A model generated the notes under the pieces. It did not search any database, was not told the origin of the DNA, and saw only the letters and a list, made by a program, of their open reading frames with translations. The position numbers were made by a program, and so were the translations under genes. Of a stretch of 64,000 bases of DNA, positions 6,884 through 36,350 are shown in pieces. Numbering within the stretch: position 1 is the stretch's first letter; the number at the start of each line of letters is the position of its first letter. This DNA comes from Micromonospora sp. NBC_01699 (GTDB lineage Bacteria > Actinomycetota > Actinomycetes > Mycobacteriales > Micromonosporaceae): assembly GCF_036250065.1 (NCBI RefSeq), contig NZ_CP109199.1, positions 1,736,001 to 1,800,000 of the forward strand, in the 5' to 3' direction.

Positions 6884-6932
6884 AGGTTCCCCGGCAGGCA
6901 ACAAGCAGCACTAGTCGGTAACTATGGAGCCG

Positions 6933-6962: not shown

Positions 6963-7001
6963 ACGGGGTCAGCGGCACGTAGGCGGCGATAGGGTGAGCC
7001 G

Positions 7002-7358
7002 ATGGAGAACGAACGCCGCCCGATCGCCCGGCACTATACGTCCGCGCCGCTGGATCACTTCGTGAATGAACCACAGCGACACGGATCACCCCGCCCCGGA
7101 CACGGCACCGTGTATGTAAAAGCTGAGGGCGGTGCCCCGCCTTATCCCGCCATAACCTATGCAGCTAGTTGGATCGACCAATACGACCGGCCGAACGAAC
7201 GGGACGAGTCGTTTGGGGCCGAAGATTTCGACGGCACCCGCGCGGAGGTCTTAGCTTGGGCACGATCCCGACCGGCGGCACAGCACCTACTTGCAGGCGA
7301 ACATGAGTGGGAGCCTCTGCCTGACGACGACAATGATGTACGGCTCCGAGGCGAGTAG
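7002..7358 (+). CDS. Hypothetical protein
   Basis: 118 residues with ATG at 7002 after a weak GGGTGAG. The composition is normal for a soluble cytoplasmic protein: an N-terminal ARHYTSAPLDHF, a central ITYAASWIDQYDRP, then GTRAEVLAWARSRPAAQHL and an acidic tail (EWEPLPDDDNDV). No family was recognised. It stands alone between two transcription units. Confidence 0.6.
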   Translation: MENERRPIARHYTSAPLDHFVNEPQRHGSPRPGHGTVYVKAEGGAPPYPAITYAASWIDQYDRPNERDESFGAEDFDGTRAEVLAWARSRPAAQHLLAGEHEWEPLPDDDNDVRLRGE

Positions 7359-7508
7359 CCCGCACCAGAAGGGCCCCGCACGGAGTTGCAGGACTGCCCC
7401 GCTCCGACGCCGTGCGCTTCACCGGTACCGATCGGCCCCGGGCCGGTCGGGTGCGGCCGTACCGTCAAATGGGTTGAGCCGGTGCCGGTGGCCGGTTGGG
7501 ATGGGGTC

Positions 7509-20462: not shown

Positions 20463-20491
20463 GTGGAGCCACCTCTTCCTTCGAGGGTTGA

Positions 20492-21490
20492 TCAGCGGGG
20501 GCGGATCAGGCGGACCATGCTGTAGGCGCCGGCGATCAGCGCGGCCAGCAGCACGAGCCAGACGACGGTCGGGTTGACGCCGCCGGTGGCGGCGCGGGTG
20601 TCGACACCGCTGAGAAGTGAGCCGGTCCCACCGACCACCGCCGCCGCGGCCGCCGCTGGGGCGGGCGCCGGCGGCAGCGGGAGGGATTCGTAGTCGACCA
20701 GCCCGGTGCTTTCCAACAGCGTGATGTGGGTCAGTACGAATGCGTTGGCCTGTGCGGCGAGTTCCCGGACGACCTCGTTGCGGGTGCCGGCCCGGACGGC
20801 ACCGATGGCCGGGAAAATCTTGCCGTGGGCGGCCCGGAGCCGCTCCACGAAGACCAGGTCGAACTGGGGGCCGGAGGCGCGCTGCATCTCGGCGAGCCAG
20901 CCCTTCTGTTCGGGCGTCGGCTCGGTCGGCAGCGGCACGCCCAGCTTTGCCGCGGCCTTGTTCACCAGATCGTCCAGCACCATGTGCTGGGGGCCGATCT
21001 TCCCGCCGACCTCCTTGACCTTGACCGAGGCGCCCTTGGCGACCGCCATGTCGCTGGCCGGCATCTCCCACAGCCCGGCCAGCTTGACCTTGACCAGCAG
21101 GTCCCGGTCGGCCGGACCGACCGGCCCGGCGGCCGACGGCTTGGCCGGCAGTTCGCCGAGCGGATTCGGCACGTCGCCGCTGACCGGGCCGCCGGACGGG
21201 TGCATGGCCGGGACCAGCGCCGGTGCCGCCACCTGCCGCACCGGCTGGGCCTGCACCGGCTGTGCCTGCATCGGCTGTGCCTGCATCGGCTGTGCCTGCA
21301 TCGGCTGTGCCTGCATCGGCTGTGCCTGCATCGGCTGGGCCTGCATCGGCTGGGCCTGCACCGGCTGGCCGGACAGTGGGGCGGCCACGGCCGCCACCGG
21401 CGCGCCGAGCACGCCGCCGAGCAGGGCACCGGCAATTGCGGTGATCATCGTCACCGGCCGACGCCGCGAACGGGGCAGTGCGGTCAACAT
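20492..21490 (-). CDS. Exported DUF4142 protein with QAQPM repeats and C-terminal anchor
   Basis: 332 residues; ATG 21490 follows GGGGAGGTGAGCCG. It has a signal peptide (TAIAGALLGGVLGAPVAAVA), then eight copies of Q-A-Q-P-(M/V). A DUF4142 domain follows: RDLLVKVKLAGLWEMPASDM, the GPQHMVLDDLV helix and LRAAHGKIFPAIGAVRAG, a ferritin-like helical bundle. It ends in a hydrophobic helix (TVVWLVLLAALIAGAYSMV) with a basic tail that would hold it in the membrane. DUF4142 proteins are periplasmic or surface proteins of unclear role. It heads a leftward unit opposite the ferric-reductase-like operon. Confidence 0.85.
   Translation of the reverse strand: MLTALPRSRRRPVTMITAIAGALLGGVLGAPVAAVAAPLSGQPVQAQPMQAQPMQAQPMQAQPMQAQPMQAQPMQAQPVQAQPVRQVAAPALVPAMHPSGGPVSGDVPNPLGELPAKPSAAGPVGPADRDLLVKVKLAGLWEMPASDMAVAKGASVKVKEVGGKIGPQHMVLDDLVNKAAAKLGVPLPTEPTPEQKGWLAEMQRASGPQFDLVFVERLRAAHGKIFPAIGAVRAGTRNEVVRELAAQANAFVLTHITLLESTGLVDYESLPLPPAPAPAAAAAAVVGGTGSLLSGVDTRAATGGVNPTVVWLVLLAALIAGAYSMVRLIRPR
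21241..21360 (-). repeat. Eight tandem 15-bp repeats inside the DUF4142 gene
   Basis: Units of the form TCGGCTGTGCCTGCA run from 21241 to 21360, five of them nearly identical and the outer ones with single changes (GGGC for GTGC, CC for TC). They encode the repeat QAQPM/QAQPV in the linker after the signal peptide. The near-identity at DNA level suggests recent slippage expansion and probable length variation between strains. Confidence 0.95.
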
Positions 21491-21537
21491 CGGCTCACCT
21501 CCCCTGACAATCAACAAATCTTCGACTGCCCGGAAAC

Positions 21538-21561
21538 CGTACGGATCATATTGTCCGTACG
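21538..21561. promoter_or_regulatory. Inverted repeat in the divergent promoter region
   Basis: CGTACGGA (21538-21545), an 8-base AT-rich spacer and TCCGTACG (21554-21561). The spacer region reads TATGAT on the minus strand. It lies 48 bases before the DUF4142 start and overlaps a TTGACG on the minus strand, so it looks like an operator for the leftward unit. The binding protein is unknown. Confidence 0.5.
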
Positions 21562-21825
21562 TCAATCCGGGGCCAACAAGATACGGAATTCTTAGGTCTT
21601 ACTTAAGTGGAACTTATGTCGGCGACCGTCAACCCCCGACATCGTCCGTTCGGCTGATGGGCACGGTTCAATGCCCAGGCCACAAGGTTGGTCAGGGTCG
21701 CCTTGACTTTTGCGCCCAGGGCACCATACTGGCTGGTAGCCCGGAATGATATAGACACCCGGCGTTGGGCTGGTGCCATCTGGAAGCAACGGGTCGGCAC
21801 CATCTGGAATAGGAGGACCGCTGGC

Positions 21826-22773
21826 GTGCGCAGTGCGCAGGAAAGTGTCCATCTCATCGCCGCGACCGTGGGATTTATTTCATTCTTCCTGCTCTGGCTC
21901 GCGGTGCTGTCCGGCCTGGTCCTGCGCAACGGCTGGGCACTGACCCGGATCCGCCATTCGACCGCGCACGCCACTCATTCCACGATCGCCCTGCTCGGGC
22001 TCTGCCTCGGCCTGGTGCACGCCCTCACCCAGCTCGCCTCACCGGGCGGCCCGGTCCGGCTGGTCGACCAGTTCATCCCCTTCCTCAACCCGGAGGACCC
22101 GATCGGCATCGGGGTCGGGGTGATCGCGCTCGAACTGCTGCTCGCCACCACGCTGTCCGTACTGATCCAGCGTCGGCTCGGATACTCCCGGTGGCGGGCG
22201 CTGCACGCGTTGACGTACGTGGCTTTCATGCTGCTCGTCGCACACGTGCTGATCTCCGGCTCCGATGTCGGGCCGCCCGCCGTCTGGGGCAGCGTACTGG
22301 TGGCCTGGCTGTCCACGGTGGCGCTGTGGTTCACCACCACACCCTGGGCCGGCGACCTGCGACGCGACCTCGGCGACCGGTTCGTCGCCCGACGACGCGG
22401 ACAGGAGATCTCGATCGACGTGGACGCCAACCGATGCGCCCGGTTCGGCTTCTGTGAACACGAGGCGCCGGACGTGTTCACCCTGCGCGGCGACGGGCGG
22501 CTGGCGTACAAGGCCATGGTTCCGGCCGACCAGACCAACGCGGTGCTCCGAGCCGTCGAGGTCTGCCCGGCCAGGGCGATTACCCTCAACCGGGTGCCGA
22601 CCACCGTGCTCACCCCGCTCCCGGTCGACCCCGACCTCGAACCGGCGTCGGCTCCCGACCCCGATCCCGACCGGCCCACTCGCGCCGCCCGCCGTCCCCG
22701 ACCCCGTCCGGGCCCGCGTTCCGTACCCTCGGGCAGCGGCACGGGGGTGCACCGCCGGGACGGTGCGCCGTGA
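21826..22773 (+). CDS. Ferric-reductase-like membrane protein fused to a ferredoxin
   Basis: 315 residues; GTG 21826 with AGGAGG nine bases upstream. Five to six helices fill residues 8-170, with paired histidines in helices (His65, His127, His140) that could bind haem b, as in ferric reductase-like transmembrane proteins. From about residue 190 a ferredoxin domain follows: ISIDVDANRCARFGFC, EHEAPDVF and AVEVCPARAI. Cysteines 204, 210 and 247 fit a [3Fe-4S]-type cluster. The overlapping next gene is a ferredoxin reductase, so electrons could run from NAD(P)H via FAD and the cluster to membrane haem. A Pro/Arg-rich tail ends the protein. Confidence 0.85.
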   Translation: MRSAQESVHLIAATVGFISFFLLWLAVLSGLVLRNGWALTRIRHSTAHATHSTIALLGLCLGLVHALTQLASPGGPVRLVDQFIPFLNPEDPIGIGVGVIALELLLATTLSVLIQRRLGYSRWRALHALTYVAFMLLVAHVLISGSDVGPPAVWGSVLVAWLSTVALWFTTTPWAGDLRRDLGDRFVARRRGQEISIDVDANRCARFGFCEHEAPDVFTLRGDGRLAYKAMVPADQTNAVLRAVEVCPARAITLNRVPTTVLTPLPVDPDLEPASAPDPDPDRPTRAARRPRPRPGPRSVPSGSGTGVHRRDGAP

Positions 22774-24089
22774 GACGGCGTGGACCACGCTCGGCGTACG
22801 ACCGGATTGTGGTGGTCGGTGCCGGACGGGCCGGGGTGGCCGCCGCCGAGGAACTGCGCCGGGCCGGCTTCCGGGGCGACGTACGCGTGCTCGGCGGCGA
22901 GCCGGACGCCCCGTACGACCGACCGGCCTGCTCGAAGGGGCTGCTCACCGGGCACCGACGGCCCAGCGACGTACGGATGCCGGTGCTCGATGGCGCCGAC
23001 ATCACCTGGCATCTCGGCCGGCGCGCGGTGCACCTGGACCCGGACCGCCGGATCGTCAGCACCGACACCGACGAGCGGTTCCGCTACGACGGCCTGGTGA
23101 TCGCCACCGGTGCCACCGCGGCGCTGCCCCCGGACTGGCCGGTCGGCGAACCGGGCCTGCACACCCTGCGCACCCTCGCCGACGCGTGGGCGCTGCGTGG
23201 CGCCCTGCGCGACGCCGACCGGGTGGTGGTCATCGGGGCCGGTCTGACCGGCTGCGAGGTCGCGTCCGCGGTACGCACCCTGGCCCGCGACGCCGTACTG
23301 GTCGACGCCAAGCCGTACGTCCTGGGACGCGCGGTCGGCGAGACGGTCGGCCGGCTGGTCACCAGGGAGGTGGCCCGCGACGGGGTGCAGTTGCGGCTCG
23401 GCCGCCGGGTCACCGGGCTGAGCCGGCGCCGCCGGGGCTGGCTGGTCGAGTTGGACGACGGCGACGAGATCCACGCCGACCTGGTCGTGACGACCACCGG
23501 CGAGCGACCCGACGTCGACTGGCTCGACGGCACCGGGCTCGACCTCACCGACGGGGTGCTGTGCGACGAGAGCCTGCGGGTGCTCGGCGCCGCCGGGATC
23601 GTCGCCGCCGGTACGGTCGCCCGCTGGCCCAACCTGCGCTACTCCGCCCGGCCGGTCCGGTGTGGACAGTGGATCGCCGCCCTGCAACAGGGACGGGCGG
23701 CCGCGCACACCCTGCTCGCCGGGGACCAGGAGACACCGCCGGTCACCGTCGTGCCCCGCTTCTGGTCCGACCAGTACGGGCTGCGCATCCAGGTCTGCGG
23801 CGAGCTGCCACGGCACGCCGAGGTGACCGTCACCGAGCTGCGTCCGGGCCGGCGCGACGTGGCCCGGGCCGGTGTGCTGGTCGGCTACCACGACGAGGGT
23901 CGCCTCGTCGGACTGGTCGCGGTCAACGCCCCGCACGCCTTCACCTCCGTCACCCGGTCCATGCTCGCCAGCGCCTCGGTCACCGTGGCCGCCCCTGTCT
24001 CCGTACCCGTGGTTTCCGAACCGGTCGCGGTCCCGGAGCCGGTCGCGGCGCCGGCCGCCCCACGGCGGCGGCTCGCCGCGGCAAGCTGA
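22770..24089 (+). CDS. FAD-dependent ferredoxin reductase
   Basis: 439 residues starting in a GTGA overlap with the ferredoxin-fusion gene. Two Rossmann motifs are visible: FAD site VVVGAGRAGVAAAEELRRAG near residue 14 and NAD(P)H site VVIGAGLTGCEVASAVR around 150. LVIATGATAALPP and IVAAGTVARWPN are further pyridine-nucleotide-disulfide reductase landmarks, and YDRPACSKGLL is typical of ferredoxin/putidaredoxin reductases. It should pass electrons to the ferredoxin domain of the preceding protein. The C-terminus has an unusual Val/Pro/Ala-rich extension of about 40 residues. Confidence 0.92.
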   Translation: MRRRGPRSAYDRIVVVGAGRAGVAAAEELRRAGFRGDVRVLGGEPDAPYDRPACSKGLLTGHRRPSDVRMPVLDGADITWHLGRRAVHLDPDRRIVSTDTDERFRYDGLVIATGATAALPPDWPVGEPGLHTLRTLADAWALRGALRDADRVVVIGAGLTGCEVASAVRTLARDAVLVDAKPYVLGRAVGETVGRLVTREVARDGVQLRLGRRVTGLSRRRRGWLVELDDGDEIHADLVVTTTGERPDVDWLDGTGLDLTDGVLCDESLRVLGAAGIVAAGTVARWPNLRYSARPVRCGQWIAALQQGRAAAHTLLAGDQETPPVTVVPRFWSDQYGLRIQVCGELPRHAEVTVTELRPGRRDVARAGVLVGYHDEGRLVGLVAVNAPHAFTSVTRSMLASASVTVAAPVSVPVVSEPVAVPEPVAAPAAPRRRLAAAS

Positions 24090-24171
24090 ACCGGCACCAC
24101 CACACCGACCACCGGCGACGGCCGGCCGCGCCCCTACGGCAACGGCCGACCGCCGCGTCGGTGGCCACCGG

Positions 24172-24834
24172 TCAGTACGAGTACGAGTCGCCGGTGCTCT
24201 CGGCGGCGCCGCCCTCGCCCTGCGGCAGCGGGACCGGCTTCGGGGTGCCCTCGGGCAGGCAGCTCAGGTTCTTTTTGCCGTCCGGGGCGACCACGAACCA
24301 GGTGCCGCCGACCTTCTGGCCCTTCCACTGGCCCGGCTTCAGGTCACCGATGTAGCGGTAGACCGGCCAACCGCCGATGGTGAGCTGACGGGTGCCGTCG
24401 TCGCGGGTCACCTCGCCGACCTTGTCCTCGGCGACCCCGGTCAGTTCGGTGTTGCCGTCGGTCAGGGCCGGCGGCCAGAGGATGGCACAGTCGCCGTTGC
24501 AGTTGCTGGTCGGCGGGTTGGCCGAGTCCTTGTCGAAGCGGTAGAGGATCCACCCCTTCTGGTCGGTGACCACCTCACCCATCTTGGCGACCTTCTTGCC
24601 GTTCAGTTCGGTGGTGAGAGGAACGTTCGACGGTGGCTTCGGCGCGGCCGACTCCGACGGTTCCGGTGTGGCGCTCGGCGCTGCCGCCGCCTCGGCCGCC
24701 GCATTCGCGACCGGCTCGGTGTTGGCGGTCTGGGTCGCGTCGTACCCGGCCGGGGCGCAGGCCGTCAGTGCGGCCACCACGGTCATTGCGGCCAGTGTGC
24801 TCGCAACGGTCGCGGTTCGCTTGATCAGTGCCAC
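24172..24834 (-). CDS. Exported lipoprotein with two COG4315/PF03640 repeats
   Basis: 220 residues; GTG 24834 follows GAGGAGGACAC. Lipobox VAALTAC gives Cys near residue 26. After an Ala/Glu/Pro linker come two copies of the secreted repeat: MGEVVTDQKGWILYRFDKD with CNGDCAILWPP, then RQLTIGGWPVYRYIGDLKPG with GTWFVVAPDG. Proteins of this class occur next to cytochrome or redox genes and are suspected electron-transfer or metal-binding surface proteins. Position opposite the reductase operon fits such a role, but this is inference. Confidence 0.88.
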   Translation of the reverse strand: MALIKRTATVASTLAAMTVVAALTACAPAGYDATQTANTEPVANAAAEAAAAPSATPEPSESAAPKPPSNVPLTTELNGKKVAKMGEVVTDQKGWILYRFDKDSANPPTSNCNGDCAILWPPALTDGNTELTGVAEDKVGEVTRDDGTRQLTIGGWPVYRYIGDLKPGQWKGQKVGGTWFVVAPDGKKNLSCLPEGTPKPVPLPQGEGGAAESTGDSYSY

Positions 24835-25162
24835 GTGTCCTCCTCAGCTTGGCAGGTCACCGGGAAGTACGCGGATCCCCGCCGAGCGGATGAGGTGATA
24901 GACGGTGGACAATTTCACAGCAAACCGTTGAACTGTTCCGTCCTGATTCCCGTACCAGCCTGGTTGGAGGGAGTTCGTCGGGTTCGCGGTCGTGTCGGCG
25001 CCCGGTCGGTGCGGACACGGACCCACCCGGCGTGGACGGCGAACTGACGGTCCGCCACCCCGGGCGATCCGGGTACCGGGCAGTGGTCCTTCGGACCTTT
25101 CGATAGCTTCGATGGAAGACCAAGCTCACTTGGGTGACGTACGGGTGGCTGGGGGAGAAGCT
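24835..25162. other. Divergent intergenic region before the putative defence operon
   Basis: About 330 bases between the leftward lipoprotein and the rightward four-gene operon. No gene was accepted; a frame from 25112 in phase with the next gene is possible but lacks a good ribosome site. No confident promoter was found. GGGGGAGAAG just before 25163 is the operon's ribosome site. Confidence 0.4.
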
Positions 25163-25810
25163 GTGACAGACGGTGCTACGCCGACGATCGCCTCCCTGAG
25201 ACCCTGCGCCGAGCGGCATCTGGCCGCCTACACCGATCCCGCCGCCGGATTCGCCTTCGGCAGCTACGACCGGTGGTACTCGACACCGGACCGGCTGACA
25301 CCGCTCGACTGTCTCGCCGCGAACCTGCTGAGCCTCAGACTCGGACACCCGCAGGTGCTGCCCCTGTTCCACCCCGGTCCGAGTCCGGCGACCAGCCTGC
25401 GGGACGCGATGCAGCTCGTACTCGACCGGACGGTCGACGGTACGGGCCCACGGTTTCTCGACCTCGACTCGATCGACGACGAGCCCTTCCGGATGCTCCG
25501 CCAGGCGAACACGTTGACCAAGGACGTTCGAGGCTGGACTGCGGTCACCGTCTGCAAGATCCTGCACCGCCTGCGGCCGGATTTCGTACCGCTCTACGAC
25601 AGCGTGCTGCGTGGCTTCTACCGGACCAGGGGACCGGCCGCATTCTTCACCGCCCTCCTGGTCGACCTCAGCGCCAGCCAGCAATGGTTGACCGCGATCA
25701 GCGACGGGGTCCGGACGCTCGATGACCGTCCACTGTCGGTTCTGCGGGCAGCCGACATCGTGATCTGGCATCACTGTCATGTCGGGTGTGCGGAAGGACC
25801 GACGGCGTGA
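25163..25810 (+). CDS. DUF6308-like protein, first gene of a putative defence operon
   Basis: 215 residues; GTG 25163 after GGGGGAGAAGCT. Recognisable blocks are DPAAGFAFGSYDRW, LDCLAANLLSL and, near residue 130, WTAVTVCKILHRLRPDFVPL followed by YDSVL, which matches the DUF6308 style in which a Lys-Leu-His segment precedes Pro and a conserved YD. No catalytic motif is known to me. Its stop overlaps the next start (GTGA), so it is translated with the DUF6361, nuclease and helicase genes. A role as sensor or specificity factor is possible but unproven. Confidence 0.7.
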   Translation: MTDGATPTIASLRPCAERHLAAYTDPAAGFAFGSYDRWYSTPDRLTPLDCLAANLLSLRLGHPQVLPLFHPGPSPATSLRDAMQLVLDRTVDGTGPRFLDLDSIDDEPFRMLRQANTLTKDVRGWTAVTVCKILHRLRPDFVPLYDSVLRGFYRTRGPAAFFTALLVDLSASQQWLTAISDGVRTLDDRPLSVLRAADIVIWHHCHVGCAEGPTA

Positions 25811-27093
25811 CCGTTGGCGTGTCGACAATTTCCTGGCTGGACATCGATGACGACCAGACCCGTCGGATCCAGGCCGCGATCGCGGCGCTGGACGACCGGG
25901 AGACCCTCGATCCGATCGGCACCGGCACCATCCGGGACGCGTTCTCGGAGGCCCTCTTTCCGGGTACGTCGACCATCCAGACCCGGCTGCGTTACTTCCT
26001 CTTCGTGCCCTGGACCTGTCAGGCGGTGGCCGCCCGACGGCCGGGTCGTACGACCTTCCAGGATCGGCTGCGTGAGCAGGAACTCCGGCTGATCGAGGCG
26101 CTGCGCCCGATCGGGCCGAACCAGGGGGTGATCGGCTACCGGGCGCGTAGGAACCTGGCCCGGATGCCCAGTTCGGTCTACTGGCACGGGCTCGGCGCGT
26201 GGGGCGTACGGACCCGACCGGAGGTCACTCTCGCCCAGTACGCGAACCTGGCGACCCGACCGGGCGGAGCGGACCGGACGATCCGCGACGACGGCGGTGA
26301 CGTGCTCGGTGGCTCGCCACCTTTCTGGGACCCGGGGCTGCCGGAACCGCCGGCCGAGTTCCCCGGAACGGGACTCACGATGGGGCTCACCGAGCCCGAG
26401 GCGCACTATCTGCGCGATCGCTTACGGTCGACCCGAATGCCCGGGGCGCATCCGGCGGGTGACCCCTCCATGCTCGCCTGCCTCGCCGAGGGCGCCGCAT
26501 CCTGGCAGGACAGCGAGGATCCCTGGTCGGACGAGCGGACAGACAGCCTCCCTGAGGCCGTCGCCCGAGTGCTGACCCACGCCCGTCACTTCTCGGAGAT
26601 CGTGTTCGGTGCGCAACTGCTCTACAACGTGCTGCTCGCCGAGCGGGCAGCGAAGGTGCTGCACGTCGACACGACCAAGCTGGTAAACGTGCTCAACGGG
26701 CAACTCGACCACTGGTTCGAGCGAGTCACCAAGCACACTGACGCGTTCACCGACTGGTGGGCGCGCCCCGAGGAGTTCTGGGCGACGGTCTCGGAGTGTG
26801 GCGGCCGAGTCCGGCCGGGCACCAGAGACCTGCTGCAACACTGGATCGGCGCGGCAGTCCTCGATCCACGGGCGGCGTTCGATGATGCCTCGTCGCGGAG
26901 CCGGATCAGGGAACAAGAGTTGGCCCTGAAGGGCCGGTACGCCCGGCTGACCCATCAGACCGCACTCCAGTCCTGGGACGGCGGCTCGATCGGGGCGGCG
27001 CCGCTGCGCTACCGCTGGCAGACCGTACGAAATCTCATGTCGGACCTGCACTTGGGCCTTGTCGGAGCGGAGGCCGCCGATGCTCCAGCCTGA
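25807..27093 (+). CDS. DUF6361 family protein
   Basis: 428 residues from a GTG overlapping the preceding stop. The N-terminus STISWLDIDDDQTRRIQAAI with LDPIGTGTIRDAFSEALFPG, then TRLRYFLFVPW, is the DUF6361 hallmark. Later blocks include IGYRARRNLARMPSSVYWHG and FSEIVFGAQLLYNVLLAE. The family has no established biochemistry, but members sit beside phospholipase-D-type nucleases and helicases in gene clusters thought to defend against phage. It overlaps the nuclease gene by 14 bases. Confidence 0.8.
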   Translation: MTVGVSTISWLDIDDDQTRRIQAAIAALDDRETLDPIGTGTIRDAFSEALFPGTSTIQTRLRYFLFVPWTCQAVAARRPGRTTFQDRLREQELRLIEALRPIGPNQGVIGYRARRNLARMPSSVYWHGLGAWGVRTRPEVTLAQYANLATRPGGADRTIRDDGGDVLGGSPPFWDPGLPEPPAEFPGTGLTMGLTEPEAHYLRDRLRSTRMPGAHPAGDPSMLACLAEGAASWQDSEDPWSDERTDSLPEAVARVLTHARHFSEIVFGAQLLYNVLLAERAAKVLHVDTTKLVNVLNGQLDHWFERVTKHTDAFTDWWARPEEFWATVSECGGRVRPGTRDLLQHWIGAAVLDPRAAFDDASSRSRIREQELALKGRYARLTHQTALQSWDGGSIGAAPLRYRWQTVRNLMSDLHLGLVGAEAADAPA

Positions 27094-28894
27094 CAGTCGG
27101 CGGACCCTGGTCGACAGCCTCCGGCCGCCGCCCGGCACCCGGCTCGACTGGGCGGTCGGGACCACCTACAGCCTCAACCTGACCACGCTGCTCGTGGTCC
27201 CCGCGGCGACCGCCCACTCCGCTGGCGGCGGGTGGGGTGATGACGACGACGATGAACCGGACGGGTTCACGCCCGTCGGCCTGCTCGACGCGCTGAACCG
27301 CGCTGCGGACCGGATCACGGTGTTCTGCGACGCGGGCCAGATCGCACCGCCACTGCACCGGCGCAGGGTCCTGCTCGGCTTCGTCGAGCAGGCGGTCGTC
27401 CCGGTCACCGCGCCGGAGGGCGGGGTGTTCCACCCGAAGCTGTGGGCACTGCGGTACGTCGACGCGGCCGGCGGCCCCACGTACCGGGTGCTGGTCGCCA
27501 CCCGCAACTTGACCTTCGACCGCTGCTGGGACACGATCACCGTGTTGGAGTCCGACCCGGACGGGCAGCCGCTACCCGGAATCGGCAACGTGGTCCGAGC
27601 CCTGCCCGACCTGTCGGTCAGCCCGTTGTCGTCGGCGCGCCGGGACCGGATCGGCGGGTTCGGCGACGAGTTGGACACCGTGCCGTTCGCGTCACCGGCC
27701 GGGTTCGGCGACCTTCGGCTGCACGCCTTCGGCCTGGGCGGCGGATCGTGGCCCTTCCCGAAAACCTGTCACCGGCTGCTCGTACTGTCCCCGTTCCTCA
27801 CCGCGCACACCCTGAAACGCCTGCCCCAGGCATCAATACGGCGCAGCGTCGTGTCCCGACCGGACGCCCTTGCGGCCGTCGGCCAGGCGGGCGAATCGTA
27901 CGACCGCTTCACCCTCAACCCGGCGGTCCTGGACGACGTCGGCGACCTGTCCGGAGCATCCCGGGACGATCCTCGGCGGGTGGACAACGGCCTGCACGCG
28001 AAGCTCTACGTCACCGACGACGAGACCGGTACGAGTTGGTGGACCGGCAGCGCCAACGCCACCAGCGCCGCCTTCGAACGCAACGTCGAGGTTCTGCTCC
28101 AGCTGCGTACGACAAACGAGCGGCACTCCGCCTCGGCGCTGCTGAGGGAACGGAAGGAGGGCGATCCGGAGGCGCGTACCCTGCGTGACCTACTGGTGCC
28201 CTGGGAAGACGACGGTACGGAGCCGGAGGAGCCGGTTGACGACAACCAGGACGAGCTCGACCGGCTTCGTCGGCTCGTGGCCGCCGTCGCCTTCTCGGCC
28301 ACCGTGGTCGAGTCCGAACCGGGCCGGTACGGCGTCACCTACCGTTCGGACGAGGCGCTACCCGTACCGGAAGATGTCGGGTTGCGCTGTTGGCCGGCGA
28401 CGGTCGGGCAGCCCGACCGACCGGCCGCGCTCGATTCCGACGGTCGCCTCGGGTACGAGACATCGGCCACCCTCACCACCCTCTCCGCCTTCCTGGTCAT
28501 CGAACTGACCCTGGCCAAGCTCTCCACCGCCTTCGTCGTCCGCTGCGCCATGCACGGCGAGCCGGACAACCGGCGGCAACTGCTGGTGGCCGAGTTGCTG
28601 GGCGACGAGCACCGGCTGGTTCGCTATCTGGTGGCCCTGCTCAGCGACGACGACGCGCCGCTCGACGGCGACGGGACTAACGGTGCCGGGGTCGATATCT
28701 GGAGCGGCGGCGACCTGGAACGGCTCCCGCTGACGGAGCTGATGATCCGGGCCCTGGCCCGGGACTCGGGACGGCTGCGCCAGATAGCCGACCTGCTTTC
28801 CACCGTTCGACACGGCGGCGGGCGTCTACCGGAGGGCTTGGACGACCTGTGGGACGCCGTGTGGCAGATCGCCCGGGAGGACGTTCGTGGCTGA
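27080..28894 (+). CDS. Phospholipase-D-type (HxK) nuclease
   Basis: 604 residues. Two HxK half-sites are visible: VFHPKLWALRY (His118, Lys120) with ATRNLTFDRCWD, and NGLHAKLYV (His306, Lys308) with TGSANATSAAFERNVEVL. The second is a complete HxK-x(n)-GSxN motif as in PLD nucleases of the DISARM DrmC and restriction-enzyme type; the first is of the same form with a changed tail. The two would form one active site within a chain. The C-terminal 250 residues are of unknown fold. ATG 27080 overlaps the previous stop and AGG-rich sequence precedes it. It probably cuts DNA loaded by the helicase. Confidence 0.85.
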   Translation: MLQPDSRRTLVDSLRPPPGTRLDWAVGTTYSLNLTTLLVVPAATAHSAGGGWGDDDDDEPDGFTPVGLLDALNRAADRITVFCDAGQIAPPLHRRRVLLGFVEQAVVPVTAPEGGVFHPKLWALRYVDAAGGPTYRVLVATRNLTFDRCWDTITVLESDPDGQPLPGIGNVVRALPDLSVSPLSSARRDRIGGFGDELDTVPFASPAGFGDLRLHAFGLGGGSWPFPKTCHRLLVLSPFLTAHTLKRLPQASIRRSVVSRPDALAAVGQAGESYDRFTLNPAVLDDVGDLSGASRDDPRRVDNGLHAKLYVTDDETGTSWWTGSANATSAAFERNVEVLLQLRTTNERHSASALLRERKEGDPEARTLRDLLVPWEDDGTEPEEPVDDNQDELDRLRRLVAAVAFSATVVESEPGRYGVTYRSDEALPVPEDVGLRCWPATVGQPDRPAALDSDGRLGYETSATLTTLSAFLVIELTLAKLSTAFVVRCAMHGEPDNRRQLLVAELLGDEHRLVRYLVALLSDDDAPLDGDGTNGAGVDIWSGGDLERLPLTELMIRALARDSGRLRQIADLLSTVRHGGGRLPEGLDDLWDAVWQIAREDVRG

Positions 28895-31800
28895 CACCCC
28901 CGACGAGCTGGCCGGTCTCACCGACTTCCAGCAGCGGACCGCGCGGTACGCGTTCCGCCGGCTGTACCTCGACCCCGACCCGACGAGGCGCTTCCTGGTC
29001 GCCGACGAGGTCGGCCTGGGCAAGACGCTCGTGGCCCGAGCGGTGGTCGCACAGGCGATCACGCACCTGCGCCAACACGGCAAACGGCGGATCGACATCG
29101 TCTACATGTGCTCGAACAGTGCGATCGTCAAACAGAATCTTCGGAAGCTGAGCCCGGTCGGACTCACCCCGACCAACATCACCGGCCGGCTGTCCCTGCT
29201 GCCCGGACAGCCGCCGGGACCGGCTGCCGGCGTCAACTTCGTGGCACTCACCCCGGGCACCTCGCTGCAACACGGAACCGCACTCGGCACCGTGGCCGAG
29301 CGGGCCCTCGCGATCGAGTTCGTGGCGAGCGTCTTCGGCCGCGACGAGGTGGAACACAGGGGGGTGTACCGGGCCTTCGCCGGCAACATCAAAGACCGGG
29401 AGGGCAGCCTCCGCGAGCTGCGTACGAGGTTCGCCGAGGCGCGCGGGTCGCTCACACCCGCGTGGGGGGCCAAAGGAATGTTCGCTCGCCATTTCCGGGA
29501 CGTGGATGCCGAATTTCGGGCCGTCACCGGGTGGCGGATGCGGGAGACGCTCGGCTGGCTCGCCGCCGAGTTCGACCGCGATGCCCGTCGGCGGGATCCG
29601 GACGCCGATGCCGTACGCAATGTCTTCATCGGCCGGGTACGGCGCGCGATGGCCGCCACCGGGGCCGAACTGCTCCGTCCGAACCTGGTCATCTTCGACG
29701 AGTTCCAGCGCTTCGCCGACCTGCTGCACAGCACGGAACCCGAGATCAAGCCGTTGATGGACAGCCTCACCGGCAGCGGCGGCGATGACGACACCGCCGC
29801 TACCCGGGCACTCCTGCTGTCCGCCACGCCGTACCGGATGCACACCACCGACGTGGAGCGGGCCGCGGGTGAGAACGATCATTATGGCGATCTTCTCCGT
29901 ACCGTCGAGTTCCTGGCCGGGAAGTCGGGCGCCGACGGGCTCGCCACCGACCTTCGCCAACTGCGGTCGGCGCTGAACCGCATCGCGGGCGACGGGCTCG
30001 ATCCCGTGGTGACCGCGACCCGATCCATCTCCGAACGCCTGCGTACGGTGATGGTGCGTACCGAGCGACTGGCCAGCACCGCCGACCGTGACGGGATGCT
30101 CCGAACGGTCACCCACACCGTCAACACCCCGGACGCGGACGAGATCCGGGGTTACCTCGCCGCGACCCGGCTGGCCGGTCAGGTCGCGCCCGGCGACCAC
30201 CCACGTGCCCTCGACCTGGTCGAGCTGTGGAAATCCGTCCCCTACCTCCTGAGCTTCCTGCACCGGGACAACTACCAGGTGAAGGCCACCCTCCACGAGG
30301 CGATCGCGGCGGCCGAGAAACCGGCGACACTCACCGACGGACTGGTCGGTACCACAGCCGTGGTGCCCTGGTCCGATGTCGACGCCTACCGTGAGGTCCC
30401 GCCCGCCAACGCCCGACTGCGGCAGCTGCTGTCCTCGGCGGCCGGGCCGGTGGCCCGCGACCTGCTGTGGATGCCGGCGTCCGCGCCGTACTACCGGGCC
30501 GACGGCGAGTTCGAGTCACCGCAGGCCCGCGAGTTCACCAAGCACCTGGTCTTCTCCGCCTGGCACGCGGTCCCGAACTCGATCAGCGCGATGCTCAGCT
30601 ACGAGGTCGAACGCGCGACGATCGGTGCGCACTCCGACGTGACCTACGCCGACGCCGCCAGCAAGGCCGTCCGTCCGCTCCGGATCGACGCGGAGACCAC
30701 CTACCTCCTGCTCTACCCGAGCGTGGCCCTGGCCGACCTGGTCGACCCACTGGCGATCAGGACCACCAGCGGCGGCGTACCGCCGACCTGGCACGCCGTC
30801 GCGGAGGCGGCCGGGCGGGTGCTGGGCGATCGGATCGACCGGTTGACGGCGGGGCACCGGGGCCGCCCGACTGATCCGCGCTGGTACTGGCTGGCACCAC
30901 TGCTGCTGGACCACGAGTCACACCGGCGCGGCAAGACCACCGCCGCCACCGTCGACCCGGTCGGCAGCTGGACGGAAGAGGGCGCCGACACCTACCGGAG
31001 CCGGATGGACGAGTGGCGGGGCATCGCCGCCTCGGGAGCGGTTCCGGGCGGCCTCGGCGCCCCGCCGGACGACCTGGTCGAGGTCCTCACCGAAGTGGCG
31101 CTCGCCTCGCCGGCCGTGTGCGCGCTACGGGCCATCCGGCGGGTACTGCCGGCGGCGACGCCGTACCAGACGCTGCCGGCGGCGGCGCGGGTCGCGTTCG
31201 GGATCCGCGCCATGTTCAACGGTCCGGAGGCGACCGCGATAGTAGCGGGGCGCGACCATGACGTGTTCTGGCGTGAGTGTCTGGGCTACGCCGCCCGGGG
31301 CAACCTCCAGGCCGTGCTCGACGAGTACCTGCACGTACTCGCCGAGTGGCAGCGCTTCGACGTGTCCACGCTGTCGGACCTCGCCGAGCACGTGTACCGC
31401 GCCGCGACCCTGCGGGCCGTGCCGTACCAGGTGGACGTGCTCGACGCGGCCGGCGGGCTGAACCAGCGGCACATGCGCGGACGGTACGCCGCCCGCTTCG
31501 GTCACGGACGCGACGACACCAACGGGGAGGTACGCGCCGAGCAGGTCTCCGAGGCGTTCAACTCGCCGTTCTGGCCGTTCGTGCTGGCCACCACCTCCAT
31601 CGGGCAGGAGGGCCTCGACTTCCACCTCTACTGCCATGCCGTGGTCCACTGGAATCTGCCGCACAACCCGGTCGACCTGGAGCAGCGCGAGGGTCGGGTG
31701 CACCGCTACAAGGGGCACGCGGTGCGGAAGAACGTGGCGGACCGCTGCGGGCTGCCCGCGAGCCCACTCGAAGACCCGTGGCGGGCGATGTTCGAGACCG

Positions 31801-32072
31801 CTGCCGGCCACCGGTCGGTGGGGGAGTCGGAGATCGTGCCGTACTGGGTCTTCGAGGGGCCGGCGAACATCGAGCGGCACCTGCTCGTCGCGCCTTACAC
31901 CCGCGACGCGTCGGTGCTGCCGCACCTGCTCGACTCGACGGTCATGTACCGCATCGCCTTCGGCCAACCGCGACAGGAGGAGCTGCTCCGCAACGTGGCG
32001 AGCGCGACGACTCCGGAGCAGCGGCAGGCGCTGTCGCGGATCCGGGTCGACCTGCGACCGCCGGCGGAATGA
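28887..32072 (+). CDS. SF2 (SNF2-like) helicase/translocase of the defence operon
   Basis: 1061 residues; GTG 28887 overlaps the nuclease stop and GGGAGG lies six bases upstream. Motif I ADEVGLGKTLVA (GLGKT 43-47), motif II IFDEFQRF (271-274, DEFQ in place of DEAH), motif III LLSATPYRM (about 311), motif V TSIGQEGLDF (about 903) and motif VI QREGRVHRYKGHAVR (about 933). The Q-motif-like FQQRTARYAF is at residue 14. A 580-residue insert between the two RecA lobes is unusual and may bind the other subunits or DNA modification marks. It likely translocates on double-stranded DNA. Its stop lies 18 bases from the convergent SDR gene. Confidence 0.9.
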   Translation: MADTPDELAGLTDFQQRTARYAFRRLYLDPDPTRRFLVADEVGLGKTLVARAVVAQAITHLRQHGKRRIDIVYMCSNSAIVKQNLRKLSPVGLTPTNITGRLSLLPGQPPGPAAGVNFVALTPGTSLQHGTALGTVAERALAIEFVASVFGRDEVEHRGVYRAFAGNIKDREGSLRELRTRFAEARGSLTPAWGAKGMFARHFRDVDAEFRAVTGWRMRETLGWLAAEFDRDARRRDPDADAVRNVFIGRVRRAMAATGAELLRPNLVIFDEFQRFADLLHSTEPEIKPLMDSLTGSGGDDDTAATRALLLSATPYRMHTTDVERAAGENDHYGDLLRTVEFLAGKSGADGLATDLRQLRSALNRIAGDGLDPVVTATRSISERLRTVMVRTERLASTADRDGMLRTVTHTVNTPDADEIRGYLAATRLAGQVAPGDHPRALDLVELWKSVPYLLSFLHRDNYQVKATLHEAIAAAEKPATLTDGLVGTTAVVPWSDVDAYREVPPANARLRQLLSSAAGPVARDLLWMPASAPYYRADGEFESPQAREFTKHLVFSAWHAVPNSISAMLSYEVERATIGAHSDVTYADAASKAVRPLRIDAETTYLLLYPSVALADLVDPLAIRTTSGGVPPTWHAVAEAAGRVLGDRIDRLTAGHRGRPTDPRWYWLAPLLLDHESHRRGKTTAATVDPVGSWTEEGADTYRSRMDEWRGIAASGAVPGGLGAPPDDLVEVLTEVALASPAVCALRAIRRVLPAATPYQTLPAAARVAFGIRAMFNGPEATAIVAGRDHDVFWRECLGYAARGNLQAVLDEYLHVLAEWQRFDVSTLSDLAEHVYRAATLRAVPYQVDVLDAAGGLNQRHMRGRYAARFGHGRDDTNGEVRAEQVSEAFNSPFWPFVLATTSIGQEGLDFHLYCHAVVHWNLPHNPVDLEQREGRVHRYKGHAVRKNVADRCGLPASPLEDPWRAMFETAAGHRSVGESEIVPYWVFEGPANIERHLLVAPYTRDASVLPHLLDSTVMYRIAFGQPRQEELLRNVASATTPEQRQALSRIRVDLRPPAE

Positions 32073-32090
32073 CCCCGCCCGGCGACGGGA

Positions 32091-32846
32091 CTACCAGGGC
32101 AGTACGCCGTACTCGTTGTTGCCGCCGTCCATCACGAAGCCCCACAGCAGGCCACTCGGCCCGTCCTCGCCCAGCGTGGCAAGGTGGACGCTCACCTCGG
32201 CACCCTGTTCCGGCGTACGGAATCCGCCGTGGTTGTTCAGGTCGGTCGCGCAGTAACCGGGATTCGCCGCGTTCACCTTGATTCGGCCGTCCCGCAGTTC
32301 CTTCGCGTACATGGCGGTGACCATGTTCAGTGCCGACTTCGACGACGGGTACGGCACCGAGGCGATCGGGAACAGCGGGTGCGCCGGATCGCTCAGCAGG
32401 CCGATCGAGCCGACCTCGCTGGAGACGTTGACGATCCGCGCCGCCGGGGCGGCCCGCAACAGCGGCAGCAGCGCGTTGGTGACCGCGACGACGCCGAAGA
32501 CGTTCGTCTCGTACACCGCGCGCAGGGTGGCGAGCGTGGTCTCGCTCGGCCGGCCGGTCCCGTCGCCCCGGGCGATCCCCGCGTTGTTCACCAGTACGTC
32601 CAGCTGGGCGTACCGGTCGGTGATCCATTTTGTCGCGCGCGCGACCGACTCCTCGTCGGTGACGTCGACTTCGACGGCGTGGGCGTCGGCGCCGCCGTCG
32701 CGCAGCGTCCGCTCGGCCTCCCGACCCCGCTGCGGGTCGCGGGCGCCGACCAGCACGGTGTAGCCGCGTTCGCCGAGCTGCCGGGCGGTGGCGAGTCCGA
32801 TTCCCTTGTTCGCCCCGGTGATCAGGGCGGTCATGTCGGTGGTCAT
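32091..32846 (-). CDS. Short-chain dehydrogenase/reductase
   Basis: 251 residues; ATG 32846. NAD(P)-binding TGANKGIGLATA at the start, DVLVNNAGIARG, catalytic Ser in VNVSSEVGSI and Tyr-x3-Lys in PYPSSKSALNM, then AANPGYCATDLNN. It resembles carbonyl reductases of the classical SDR type. It is transcribed away from a regulator gene 103 bases distant, which probably controls it. Substrate unknown. Confidence 0.92.
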   Translation of the reverse strand: MTTDMTALITGANKGIGLATARQLGERGYTVLVGARDPQRGREAERTLRDGGADAHAVEVDVTDEESVARATKWITDRYAQLDVLVNNAGIARGDGTGRPSETTLATLRAVYETNVFGVVAVTNALLPLLRAAPAARIVNVSSEVGSIGLLSDPAHPLFPIASVPYPSSKSALNMVTAMYAKELRDGRIKVNAANPGYCATDLNNHGGFRTPEQGAEVSVHLATLGEDGPSGLLWGFVMDGGNNEYGVLPW

Positions 32847-32949
32847 GGGTCGAGCGTGCCGCCGGGCGAGCCGGGGCGGGAGAGACCGGCCGAGGCTGGT
32901 ACCGGCGGTACCACCCACGGTCGGTCGGGCAGGGGGGACCATGGGAGCC

Positions 32950-33810
32950 ATGACCACGGCGAACTCCTCCGGGCTGCGGCGTGACGAGCTGGCCGCGTTC
33001 CTGCGCAGTCGGCGGGCGAGGCTGCGTCCGGGCGACGCCGGTCTGCCCGAGGGCATCGGTCGTCGTACGCCGGGGCTGCGGCGGCAGGAGGTGGCCCAAC
33101 TCGCCGGGATGTCGATCGACTACTACATCCGGCTGGAGCAGCGGCGGGGCCCGCATCCGTCCCGGCAGGTGCTGCTGGCGTTGTCCCGGGCGCTGATGCT
33201 CACCCGGGACGAGCGGGAGTACCTGTTCCGGATCGCCGGGGAGAACCCGCCCGCGACGGTCGGGCCGAGCCGGGAGGTGACGGCGGGCGTACGGCACCTG
33301 ATCGACGCGATGGTCGAGACCCCGGCGTACGTCGTCGACGCCAAGTACGACGTGCTGGCCTGGAACCGGTTGGCGACGTACTTCGTCGGGGACCTGTCGG
33401 CGGTACCGGAGTCGGACCGGAACATGATCCGCTGGATGTTCCGCCAGCCCGCCACCGACCCGCACTGGGACGACGCCCACACGCTGCGGTTCGCCCGCAG
33501 TTCGCTGGCTGACCTGCGGGCCGCCTACGGGCGTTATCCGGGAGATCCGGGCATCGAGGAACTCGTCACCGAACTGCTCGGCAGCTCGTCCCGGTTCGCC
33601 GAACTGTGGGCGGACCACGAGGTCGAGGTCCGGCGGCGGATAGTGAAACGGGTGTCGCACCCCGAGATTGGCGCACTCGCGTTCGAGTGTCAGGTGCTGC
33701 ACCTGGCCGACACCGACCAGCGGCTGATCGTCTACGTGGCCGAGCCCGGCTCACCCACCCACGATGCCTTCCGCCGGCTCGGTAGCCGGGCCGACCTGCC
33801 CAGCGCCTAG
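32950..33810 (+). CDS. HTH regulator with MmyB-like ligand-binding domain
   Basis: 286 residues. An N-terminal XRE helix-turn-helix (LRSRRARLRPGDAGLP, RRQEVAQLAGMSIDYYIRLE) is followed by the MmyB-like domain (VRHLIDAMVETPAYVVDAKY, DVLAWNRLATYF, VLHLADTDQRLIVYVAEPGS). The type is widespread in actinobacteria and usually encoded divergently from the oxidoreductase it represses, as with the SDR here. An ATG at 32941 is an alternative start; GGGGGG lies just upstream of both. Confidence 0.92.
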   Translation: MTTANSSGLRRDELAAFLRSRRARLRPGDAGLPEGIGRRTPGLRRQEVAQLAGMSIDYYIRLEQRRGPHPSRQVLLALSRALMLTRDEREYLFRIAGENPPATVGPSREVTAGVRHLIDAMVETPAYVVDAKYDVLAWNRLATYFVGDLSAVPESDRNMIRWMFRQPATDPHWDDAHTLRFARSSLADLRAAYGRYPGDPGIEELVTELLGSSSRFAELWADHEVEVRRRIVKRVSHPEIGALAFECQVLHLADTDQRLIVYVAEPGSPTHDAFRRLGSRADLPSA

Positions 33811-33819
33811 CCTCTTCTT

Positions 33820-33851
33820 CCGCTCACCCCGGCGCCGTCGCGGGTGAGCGG
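33820..33851. terminator. Hairpin terminator between convergent genes
   Basis: Perfect 10-bp stem CCGCTCACCC (33820-33829) against 33842-33851 with a 12-base loop, ten bases after the regulator stop and facing the anti-sigma gene. Confidence 0.7.
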
Positions 33852-33885
33852 CCCGGCGTCATCTGCGGGCGTTCCGGTCGGCGGC

Positions 33886-34662
33886 TCAGAGTGGCACGGT
33901 GACCAGTGCCGTTGCGGCTCCGTTGGCGTCGACCGCCTGCACCTGCATCCGGTCGATGTCGGCCCGGCGCGTCGCGGTGGTGGCCTGCAACAGCAGCGGC
34001 TCCGGACGGGCCGGTGTGCCGTAACCCTCGGCCGGCACGGTCCAGCTCGACAGCACCTCCGGCTCGCCGTTCTTGCGCAGCACCACCAGCCGGCAGAGCC
34101 GTGGACCGGTGAGCTTGCTCAGCGCGAACGAGATCTGGGTGCCGAACGGCCGGTCGTCGAGCAGCAGGTCGGCCCGGACCCCGGTGTTCTGGTCGGTGAC
34201 GGTCAGCTTCTCGCCCGCACCCAGCTCGGGGCCGCCGAAGCCGCCGCCCGGGTTCGGCGGGTTGCCCGCCGAGGCCGACGGCGGTGCGCTGGGCAGCGCG
34301 TTCGTCTGCGGACCGTCGCCGACCCAGCTCGCCCCGGCCACCAGGGCCAGTCCGCTCAGCAGCGCCACCACGACCACGCCCGCCGCCAGGCTGAGGATCC
34401 GCTGGCTGCGGGCCCGCTTGCGGTCCAGGCTGACCACGTTCAGCGCGCGGGTGACCATGGTGTCGTCGGCGGTCGCCCGCTCCATCACCGCCAGGTCGTC
34501 CCGGTCGACCTCGGCGAGCAGGTCGACCACCGGCAGCAGCGACTCCAGTTCACCGGCGCAGGCCCAGCAGTCGACCAGGTGCTCCTCGAACCGTACGGTG
34601 TCCTCTTCGTCGAGCACGCCGAGCGCGTACGAGGCGACGTCGAAGTGGTCGGACCGGCTCAT
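33886..34662 (-). CDS. Zinc-binding anti-sigma factor, membrane-bound
   Basis: 258 residues. The cytoplasmic ZAS domain has HLVDCWAC (His28, Cys32, Cys35; HxxxCxxC). One transmembrane helix (LAAGVVVVALLSGLALVAGA) lies near residues 92-111. The outer domain starts with a Pro/Gly/Ser linker and ends in a strand-rich part (FALSKLTGPRLCRLVVLRKN) like the RskA C-terminal domain. It should hold the ECF sigma encoded just upstream (ATGA overlap) until a surface signal triggers proteolysis. Confidence 0.9.
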   Translation of the reverse strand: MSRSDHFDVASYALGVLDEEDTVRFEEHLVDCWACAGELESLLPVVDLLAEVDRDDLAVMERATADDTMVTRALNVVSLDRKRARSQRILSLAAGVVVVALLSGLALVAGASWVGDGPQTNALPSAPPSASAGNPPNPGGGFGGPELGAGEKLTVTDQNTGVRADLLLDDRPFGTQISFALSKLTGPRLCRLVVLRKNGEPEVLSSWTVPAEGYGTPARPEPLLLQATTATRRADIDRMQVQAVDANGAATALVTVPL

Positions 34663-35351
34663 TCGGTCACCCCCCGCTGTTGCAGCGCGGTCCGCAGGGC
34701 GCGTAGCGCGTAGTAGACCCGGGACTTGGCGGTGCCCAGTGGCAACCCCAACTCCTCGGCGGCCTCCGGCACCGTACGGCCCCGGAAATAGGTGGCGACC
34801 AGGATCTCCCGATGCGAGTCGCTCAGCGTACGGAGTGCGTCGGTAACCGTCATCAGGCGTAGCACCCGTTCGGTTTCGTCGGCTTCGGAGAAGGTTTCCA
34901 GATCTCGGTCGTAGGTTTCCGCCGGCCGGGCCTGTCCGCTGCGATGTTCGTCAATGACGATCCGCCGGGCGACGGTGACCAGCCAGGGCCGCAGGGACGT
35001 CTGCCCCTGGGCACCGAGCCGGTGCGCGTTGCGCCAGGCACGCAACAGCGTTTCCTGTACGACGTCCTCGGCCCGCTGCCGGTCGCCGCCGGTGAGCCGG
35101 AGCACGAACATCAGCAGAGGGCCGGCATGCTGCTCATAGAGAAGCCGGACCAGATCGTCGGAACGGTTGGCCTCGGCTGACCCGGATTGGTGGCGGCCGG
35201 TAGCCGATCGTGGCGTCACGCGCTCATCATTGCCGGCAGCGATTCGGGCGTCGATACCGCCCCCGGCTTCAATTTCCCGCCGGGGTCGAGGGGCGCGCAC
35301 CCAGTCCGCCCGGACCAGGTCGACAGGCCGTTCTTCGGTCACCGTGTGCAT
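34659..35351 (-). CDS. ECF RNA polymerase sigma factor
   Basis: 230 residues; ATG 35351 with GGAGGGG just upstream. Region 2: LLYEQHAGPLLMFVLRLTGG, AEDVVQETLLRAWRNA and SLRPWLVTVARRIVIDEHR. Region 4: LRTLSDSHREILVATYF and TVPEAAEELGLPLGTAKSRV. It resembles the SigL/SigK-like ECF group with cognate ZAS anti-sigma. The N-terminal 60 residues are unusually long and basic; a GTG nearer region 2 is an alternative start. It overlaps the anti-sigma gene by four bases. Confidence 0.92.
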   Translation of the reverse strand: MHTVTEERPVDLVRADWVRAPRPRREIEAGGGIDARIAAGNDERVTPRSATGRHQSGSAEANRSDDLVRLLYEQHAGPLLMFVLRLTGGDRQRAEDVVQETLLRAWRNAHRLGAQGQTSLRPWLVTVARRIVIDEHRSGQARPAETYDRDLETFSEADETERVLRLMTVTDALRTLSDSHREILVATYFRGRTVPEAAEELGLPLGTAKSRVYYALRALRTALQQRGVTE

Positions 35352-35478
35352 TCACCCCTCCGCTGTCCCGTTATCCGGCCACCGTGGGGTACGGATCCCG
35401 ACCGGCAACGGATCAACCCCGGCGGACCGGATCCCGGTCGAGCCGAAATCGCCCCGCTGCGAGGCGGCTCACCCGGCC

Positions 35479-35500
35479 CCGGGTGACCCAGATCACCCGG
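35479..35500 (-). terminator. Hairpin overlapping the stop of the spermidine-synthase-like gene
   Basis: Perfect 8-bp stem CCGGGTGA (35479-35486) against 35493-35500 with a 6-base loop. The stop codon of the leftward gene is inside the right arm, so the hairpin forms right at the end of the message. Confidence 0.5.
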
Positions 35501-36350
35501 CCACGCCGAAGGTGCCGGCCGGCGGCGGGGCGGAGGCGGTCGCGGTGGCGTCCACCACGATTCTGGCGCCGCCGGTGAACCGATCCAGCTCCTCGTCGGC
35601 CAGCACCCGGCCGGGAAACCAGTCACCGGCCGCACGGCGGGTCAATTCGGCCACCGGCGGTGGCACCCGCCCGGCGACCAGCACCAGGTTGCCGTACCGG
35701 CGGCCGCGCAGCACCGCCGCGTCGGCGACCAGGCAGGCCAGCGGCAGCACCGACCGGACCGTGACGACCTGACCCCGGACGTGCTTGAGGGGCGGCCCGT
35801 CGGCGACGTTCACCAGGTACGTGCCGGCCGGGCGGAGCACCCGCGCCACCTCACCGGCGAACTCGACCGAGGTGAGCCGGGCCGGGGTCCGGGCACCGGC
35901 GAACACGTCGGCGACCACCAGGTCGTACGAGTCGTCGGGGGTGCCGGTCAGCGCCTCGCGGGCGTCGGCGACCCGTACCTTCAGCCGGGCCTGCGGGGGC
36001 CAGGGCAGTTCCCGCCGGACCAGTTCGACCAGGGCACCGTCGACCTCGACCACCCGCTGGGTGGAGCCGGGACGGGTCCGGGCCACGTACCGGGGCAGGG
36101 TCAGCGCGCCGCCGCCCAGGTGCAGCACCCGCAGCGGCGTACCGGCCGGGGCGACCAGGTCGATCGCGGCGGCCATCCGGCGGATGTACTCGAACTCCAG
36201 GTGGGTCGGGTCGTCCAGGTCGACGTGCGACTGCGGGGTGCCGTCGAGATTGAGCGTGAACGATCGCGGCCGGTCGGGGTCGGGCACCAGCTCGGCGAGC
36301 CCGGTGTCGACCCGTACGGCGAGCCGGTCCGGACCTCGCTTACGTGCCAT
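35493..36350 (-). CDS. Spermidine-synthase-like methyltransferase-fold protein
   Basis: 285 residues. The nucleotide-binding core has LRVLHLGGGALTLPRYVA, VVEVDGALVELVRREL, RVADAREAL and YDLVVADVFAGA, the order seen in spermidine-synthase-like proteins of actinobacteria. The classic polyamine-site residues are not all evident, so the substrate is uncertain. It starts 45 bases downstream of the nurA-like gene and may be the last gene of that operon. Confidence 0.85.
   Translation of the reverse strand: MARKRGPDRLAVRVDTGLAELVPDPDRPRSFTLNLDGTPQSHVDLDDPTHLEFEYIRRMAAAIDLVAPAGTPLRVLHLGGGALTLPRYVARTRPGSTQRVVEVDGALVELVRRELPWPPQARLKVRVADAREALTGTPDDSYDLVVADVFAGARTPARLTSVEFAGEVARVLRPAGTYLVNVADGPPLKHVRGQVVTVRSVLPLACLVADAAVLRGRRYGNLVLVAGRVPPPVAELTRRAAGDWFPGRVLADEELDRFTGGARIVVDATATASAPPPAGTFGVAG

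Follow-up and report, generated by a model that had tools for sequence, protein, structure and literature searches.

The 64-kb stretch of Micromonospora sp. NBC_01699 DNA analysed here (the window) carries four overlapping open reading frames (ORFs) on the + strand, spanning positions 25163-32072, which the original prediction had taken for a translationally coupled, unnamed four-gene defence set. The locus raises the question of whether these genes form a defence system, which system it is, and whether all four genes belong to it. Re-reading of the ORFs in the window confirmed all four, at unchanged coordinates, by their start and stop codons. Gene 1, the DUF6308 lead gene, lies at 25163..25810 (+; 215 aa), gene 2 (zacA, with DUF6361) at 25807..27093 (+; 428 aa), gene 3 (zacB, encoding a PLD-superfamily or HKD nuclease) at 27080..28894 (+; 604 aa), and gene 4 (zacC, encoding an SF2 DNA translocase or helicase of SNF2/RapA-like type) at 28887..32072 (+; 1061 aa). 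Genes 1, 2 and 4 start with GTG and gene 3 with ATG, and all four end with TGA. Gene 1 and zacA share 4 nt (GTGA, 25807-25810), zacA and zacB 14 nt, and zacB and zacC 8 nt. The GTGA junction at 25807 and the ATG at 27080 inside the preceding gene are as predicted, and the GTG at 28887, which had been placed inside the previous stop codon, is actually 5 nt upstream of the zacB stop codon. In addition, Shine-Dalgarno-like purine-rich stretches precede all four starts. The overlapping junctions uphold translational coupling of the operon, and the overlapping start and stop codons would keep the proportions of the products. In its longest open form gene 1 would start at 24992; the GTG at 25163 is the better start, because it is preceded by GGGGGAG and the homology to the Micromonospora orthologue begins at about that point. 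A promoter is presumed to lie in the leader (24957..25162, +), between the edge of the acquired block described below and the first start codon. No sigma-70 consensus was found on the + strand of the leader, and scanning of the GC-rich DNA of the locus for promoters and terminators gave nothing useful.

Families were assigned with Pfam and with PADLOC, whose models name defence proteins. The PADLOC model of ZacA matches gene 2 at 1.2e-111 (residues 13-425 of 435 against model positions 3-394 of 396), that of ZacB matches gene 3 at 5e-147 (residues 8-607), and that of ZacC matches gene 4 at 3.2e-288 (residues 6-1058). The corresponding Pfam matches are DUF6361 for gene 2 (PF19888, 3.8e-53), a match below the cut-off to PLDc_2 on the second half-site of gene 3 (E 2.7e-5), and DEAD and Helicase_C for gene 4. 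ZacA, a ZacB with both half-sites and a ZacC with intact motifs are all encoded, contiguously and in the order zacA-zacB-zacC, at 25807-32072. Judging from these matches, genes 2-4 are almost certainly Azaca (ZacA-ZacB-ZacC), an already catalogued defence system of three genes. The PADLOC matches thus bear out the prediction of a defence operon built on a DNA translocase and a PLD nuclease, and give most of the supposedly unnamed set an existing name. Chance ORFs are excluded, because each protein has a strong family match and the zacA-zacB-zacC order recurs in every intact relative. The primary report of Azaca is that of Millman et al. 2022. Azaca is catalogued as containing a PLD-like domain (PMC10952713), ZacC is its helicase (PMC12278908), and the system is counted among those enriched in Actinobacteria, with an unknown mechanism (PMC10482375). 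A literature search on DUF6361 and DUF6308 found no paper in the collection that was covered.

ZacA has no relative among solved structures, and its structure model, built from 3 sequences, is poor (pLDDT 43) and gives no functional clue. ZacB carries the two HxK half-sites that had been predicted. The first, HPK (H125/K127, in FHPK...RN), lies at 27431..27439 (+) with its partner R149-N150 at 27503-27508, and the second extends from HAK (H313/K315) to GSAN (330-333) at 27995..28057 (+), in the arrangement HAK...GSAN...E. Residues H125, K127 and N150 of the first, and H313, K315, N333 and E344 of the second, are invariant in 19 homologues. Both PLD half-sites of ZacB are thus kept in 19/19 homologues, as expected of a functional nuclease. 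In profile searches it matched 7clg, a PLD plus helicase protein (7e-5), and NucT (6ehi, 0.027), while the score with the BfiI-type structure 2c1l (0.31) was insignificant. Among solved structures, the relatives of both ZacB and ZacC are alike in their motifs only.

For ZacC, the nearest solved structure by profile is RapA (E 7.5e-5), and the full set of SF2 helicase motifs that had been proposed is present and kept across homologues. Motif I (Walker A, DEVGLGKT) lies at 29004..29027 (+), and 20-21 homologues all keep its K46 (the GKT lysine) and D40/E41/G43/G45; motif II (DEFQ, 29697..29708, +) and motif III (SAT, 29820..29828, +) are also invariant. Motifs V (TSIGQEGLDFH) and VI (QREGRVHR) form a near-invariant block at 31593..31706 (+), where Pfam Helicase_C matches residues 885-941. 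A motif-IV-like block with invariant K552, F556, S557, W559 and Y572 bears on the single 580-residue insert that had been placed between the two lobes. Two inserts are more likely, one of about 205 residues separating the lobes and one of about 300 inside lobe 2, since the motif-IV-like block marks the start of lobe 2 and Helicase_C matches only the second half of that lobe (885-941).

The window neighbours of the operon are ordinary metabolic and regulatory genes and form no defence island; as predicted, no transposase is among them. A DNA methyltransferase was likewise correctly said to be lacking nearby: none was found among the ten neighbouring genes scanned (19455-36287), of which the only methyltransferase-like one (35493-36287) matches Spermine_synth/Methyltransf_11. 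In relatives, zacABC is found beside a Druantia DruE fragment, HsdS, HsdR and SbcC-like ATPases, and also beside an AddAB-like pair, AbiE and an integrase; chosen genes were scanned there, which gives a pattern and not a rate. The plasmid cases illustrate this. On the conjugative plasmid p195_2 of Bradyrhizobium sp. 195 (L119), a PD-(D/E)XK nuclease and a UvrD helicase (the AddAB-like pair) directly precede Azaca, and SbcCD and AbiE genes follow it, while on the Cronobacter plasmid pA14-1 an integrase gene is located upstream of zacA. On both plasmids, the Azaca genes are annotated as DUF6361, phospholipase D family and helicase-related protein. As a separate observation, positions 1-7000 of the window have a G+C content of 0.63-0.65 (versus 0.70-0.74), few confident genes and no Rfam match.

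How such a system would spare the host is the next question. By analogy with other systems, Azaca on balance probably interferes by means of a DNA translocase plus a nuclease. ZacC would translocate along double-strand DNA at the expense of ATP, and it would load on phage DNA whose state is abnormal, with free ends, gaps or forks, and not on a methylatable sequence; ZacB, the PLD nuclease with two half-sites, would be the effector that cuts the DNA engaged by ZacC. ZacA may act as an adaptor or regulator dedicated to the system and produced in step with ZacB, and the DUF6308 protein would be an add-on of one lineage, changing recognition or supplying extra DNA binding. Self-protection must work by other means than site methylation, because no methyltransferase is nearby and none ever occurs in the three-gene core; loading of ZacC according to DNA state would explain host survival without a partner methyltransferase. 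The discrimination made by DrmAB of DISARM rests on DNA structure (PMC9142583), and that made by Hachiman on DNA damage (PMC12278908); it is from these analogies that we infer a ZacC that reads the DNA state and a ZacB that cuts. We propose only tentatively that sensing of DNA state is the self/non-self rule of Azaca. Moreover, the PLD protein of DISARM, DrmC, appears to be non-essential (PMC9142583), so the PLD gene of Azaca need not be an essential effector. The same parts might instead serve abortive infection or genome-integrity sensing as in Hachiman, the helicase sensing the DNA damage of infection and the nuclease destroying phage and host DNA alike. This would suit a helicase and nuclease without a methyltransferase, a pair that has been shown to act so in Hachiman (PMC12278908), as well as the association of Azaca loci with SbcCD- and AddAB-like end-processing genes. 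However, the PADLOC models detected no homology of ZacA or ZacB to HamA, and we regard this alternative as rather unlikely.

The extent of the system was judged from Azaca loci sampled in the same family, class and phylum, and from two plasmids and two named genome records. The genomic loci with a readable zacA and upstream region number 26, and in each of them zacA-zacB-zacC are contiguous, their genes overlapping or abutting. DUF6308 precedes zacA in two of the 26, namely this window and Micromonospora sp. BL4, whose DUF6308 orthologue is 68% and ZacC 74% identical to those described here. The co-occurrence expected of four families therefore holds for DUF6361, PLD and helicase (26/26) and fails for DUF6308 (2/26). 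In BL4 an extra gene (L021:6166-6912) is inserted between DUF6308 and zacA; its product has an HTH-like start and then a stretch, GTDIEA...VEVKG, of the type usual in PD-(D/E)XK nucleases, and gave no Pfam or PADLOC match. The slot before zacA is filled in various ways elsewhere. A DUF429 protein stands there, in the same slot as DUF6308 here, in three Micromonosporaceae loci of one ZacC clade (L043:6995-7765, L046:6662-7432 and L048) and, in a fourth locus from this family (L108), beside a truncated zacA. An EcsC protein fills the slot in two loci of different ZacC clades, and in other loci there is an ATPase gene or nothing coupled. The truncated zacA of L108 (genome G005, about 6800-7423) matches only the N-terminal part of ZacA, with no zacB or zacC match downstream in the fetched stretch, and is probably a decayed Azaca.

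A fixed system of four components with an essential DUF6308 would agree with the GTGA overlap of DUF6308 and zacA, with the position of both inside the acquired block, and with the repetition of the DUF6308-Azaca pairing in BL4. Against it, DUF6308 is missing from 24 of the 26 readable Azaca loci, another gene separates it from zacA in BL4, and it usually occurs without Azaca; in addition, two genomes that have both (G024 and G557) carry them far apart or on different contigs. A fixed four-gene system is thus quite improbable and was rejected on its occurrence in 2/26 loci.

The lead gene itself matches Pfam DUF6308 (PF19827, 5e-18) and no PADLOC model. Its structure model is all-helical and of low confidence (pLDDT 52; built from 2 sequences), and a PDB fold search with this model, which is too poor for the purpose, gave no match at E <= 0.001. 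The best-conserved stretch of the family is K-[IL]-L-H-x-[KR]-x-P-x-[FL]-[VF]-P-[LI]-x-D, with G-[IVL]-G ahead of it in some members; it is similar to the helix-hairpin-helix (HhH) plus aspartate signature of HhH-GPD glycosylases. Phage defence by DNA glycosylases is known (PMC11078745). In profile alignment the DUF6308 stretch falls in register with HhH..VDT, but with a probability of 1% (P 0.04), while the positive control reached 99%; the register is suggestive of an HhH-GPD glycosylase fold for DUF6308 and is statistically unsupported. Apart from Azaca, and among the chosen neighbours scanned, DUF6308 adjoins HsdR in one setting and a ResIII protein in another, closes an operon of an SNF2-type helicase, DUF4365 and a short pAgo (L090:3283-9832, -; PADLOC pAgo_I 1.5e-164), and is joined C-terminally to an AAA ATPase in a protein of 911 aa (L087:5512-8247). 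It is conceivable, though doubtful, that DUF6308 is a swappable HhH-like DNA-reading module used by several unrelated DNA-degrading defences (Azaca, a type I restriction locus, a pAgo operon), which would re-target Azaca here, perhaps to phage bases that are modified or damaged. Should DUF6308 turn out to be a specificity module common to such systems, the fitting of a single nuclease-helicase core to different phages would be explained.

The flanks of the operon bear on how it came to this site. The genes on either side are 85-91% identical and colinear in both congeneric genomes, and the operon and its leader (24957..32083, +; edges good to about 10 bp) are absent at the orthologous position in both. 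In blastn comparison with congener G002 the sequences are colinear to 24956 and resume at 32084, with about 10 bp between; with G001 they are colinear to 24955 and resume at 32091, with about 490 bp of other sequence between. ZacC was found in neither congeneric genome. The insert of about 490 bp in G001 (L118, about 7106-7596), at the junction orthologous to 24956/32084, contains an ORF that was read by eye as GIY-YIG-like, and this junction is possibly a small integration hotspot. The block carries no recombinase, and searches of its edges for an integrase and for att-like or terminal repeats found nothing beyond a shared word of 6 bp, TACCAG, that may have arisen by chance.

Distribution points in the same direction. 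Of 301 family genomes, 17 (about 6%) have ZacC, as do 9 of 395 class genomes, and ZacA occurs in 8 of 396 phylum genomes; the ZacC search also matched 47 plasmid records, and Azaca is plasmid-borne in other phyla. Among viral contigs there was no relative of ZacA, ZacC or DUF6308, and among phage records there was one match, an unannotated faecal scaffold. On the ZacC tree, the sequences of this window and Micromonospora sp. BL4 cluster at 100/100. Their clade joins sequences of other families and orders and lies apart from the main clade of the family they belong to, a position that fits lateral transfer. The empty site, patchy distribution, plasmids and ZacC tree together argue for lateral spread of a defence cassette. 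A housekeeping DNA-repair operon, which the RapA/SNF2-like lobes of ZacC and the ordinary surrounding genes might suggest, is barely credible and was rejected, since the empty site in congeners rules out a conserved repair locus in all relatives and Azaca occurs in only about 6% of family genomes, on plasmids and beside restriction or Druantia genes. Taken together, the sequence evidence indicates that the locus is very probably an Azaca anti-phage system that was acquired horizontally and has DUF6308 as a facultative lead gene. The precise empty site in two congeners offers a clean natural comparison, and the optional lead gene can be compared with phage range.

Among known systems, type I and type III restriction-modification are not represented, as none of the four proteins matched the REase_I or REase_III models and ResIII was sub-threshold in ZacC. 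Hachiman (HamAB) shares the methyltransferase-free design of helicase plus nuclease (PMC12278908); however, the Azaca nuclease is of a different family, ZacA is extra, and none of the four proteins matched the PADLOC models of HamA or HamB. ZacC matches the helicase motifs of the SNF2-type helicases of Dpd (DpdE, 7.6e-14) and BREX (BrxHI/II), but only short motif stretches align and the other Dpd and BREX genes are absent here. DISARM has the same logic of helicase and PLD nuclease, and half-site 2 of ZacB resembles DrmC (E 9e-5) and lobe 2 of ZacC resembles DrmD (E 1e-13), in motif regions only and far below curated cut-offs. In contrast to DISARM, the locus lacks DrmA, DrmB (DUF1998) and a methyltransferase; with the PADLOC models, DrmB matched none of the four proteins and DrmA only a short motif stretch of ZacC. 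Among PLD nucleases of the BfiI/NucT type, the HAK...GSxN half-site of ZacB aligns with NucT at E 0.027 and with BfiI at E 0.31, whereas ZacB has two half-sites per polypeptide and a long extra region, and such weak scores show no kinship beyond the superfamily. With Azaca, the agreement extends to three proteins that fit the family models from end to end and are encoded in the same order by overlapping genes, with intact catalytic motifs. The locus differs from it in the DUF6308 lead gene coupled to zacA, a pairing otherwise seen only in Micromonospora sp. BL4; this putative accessory is the only new element, the rest being already known.
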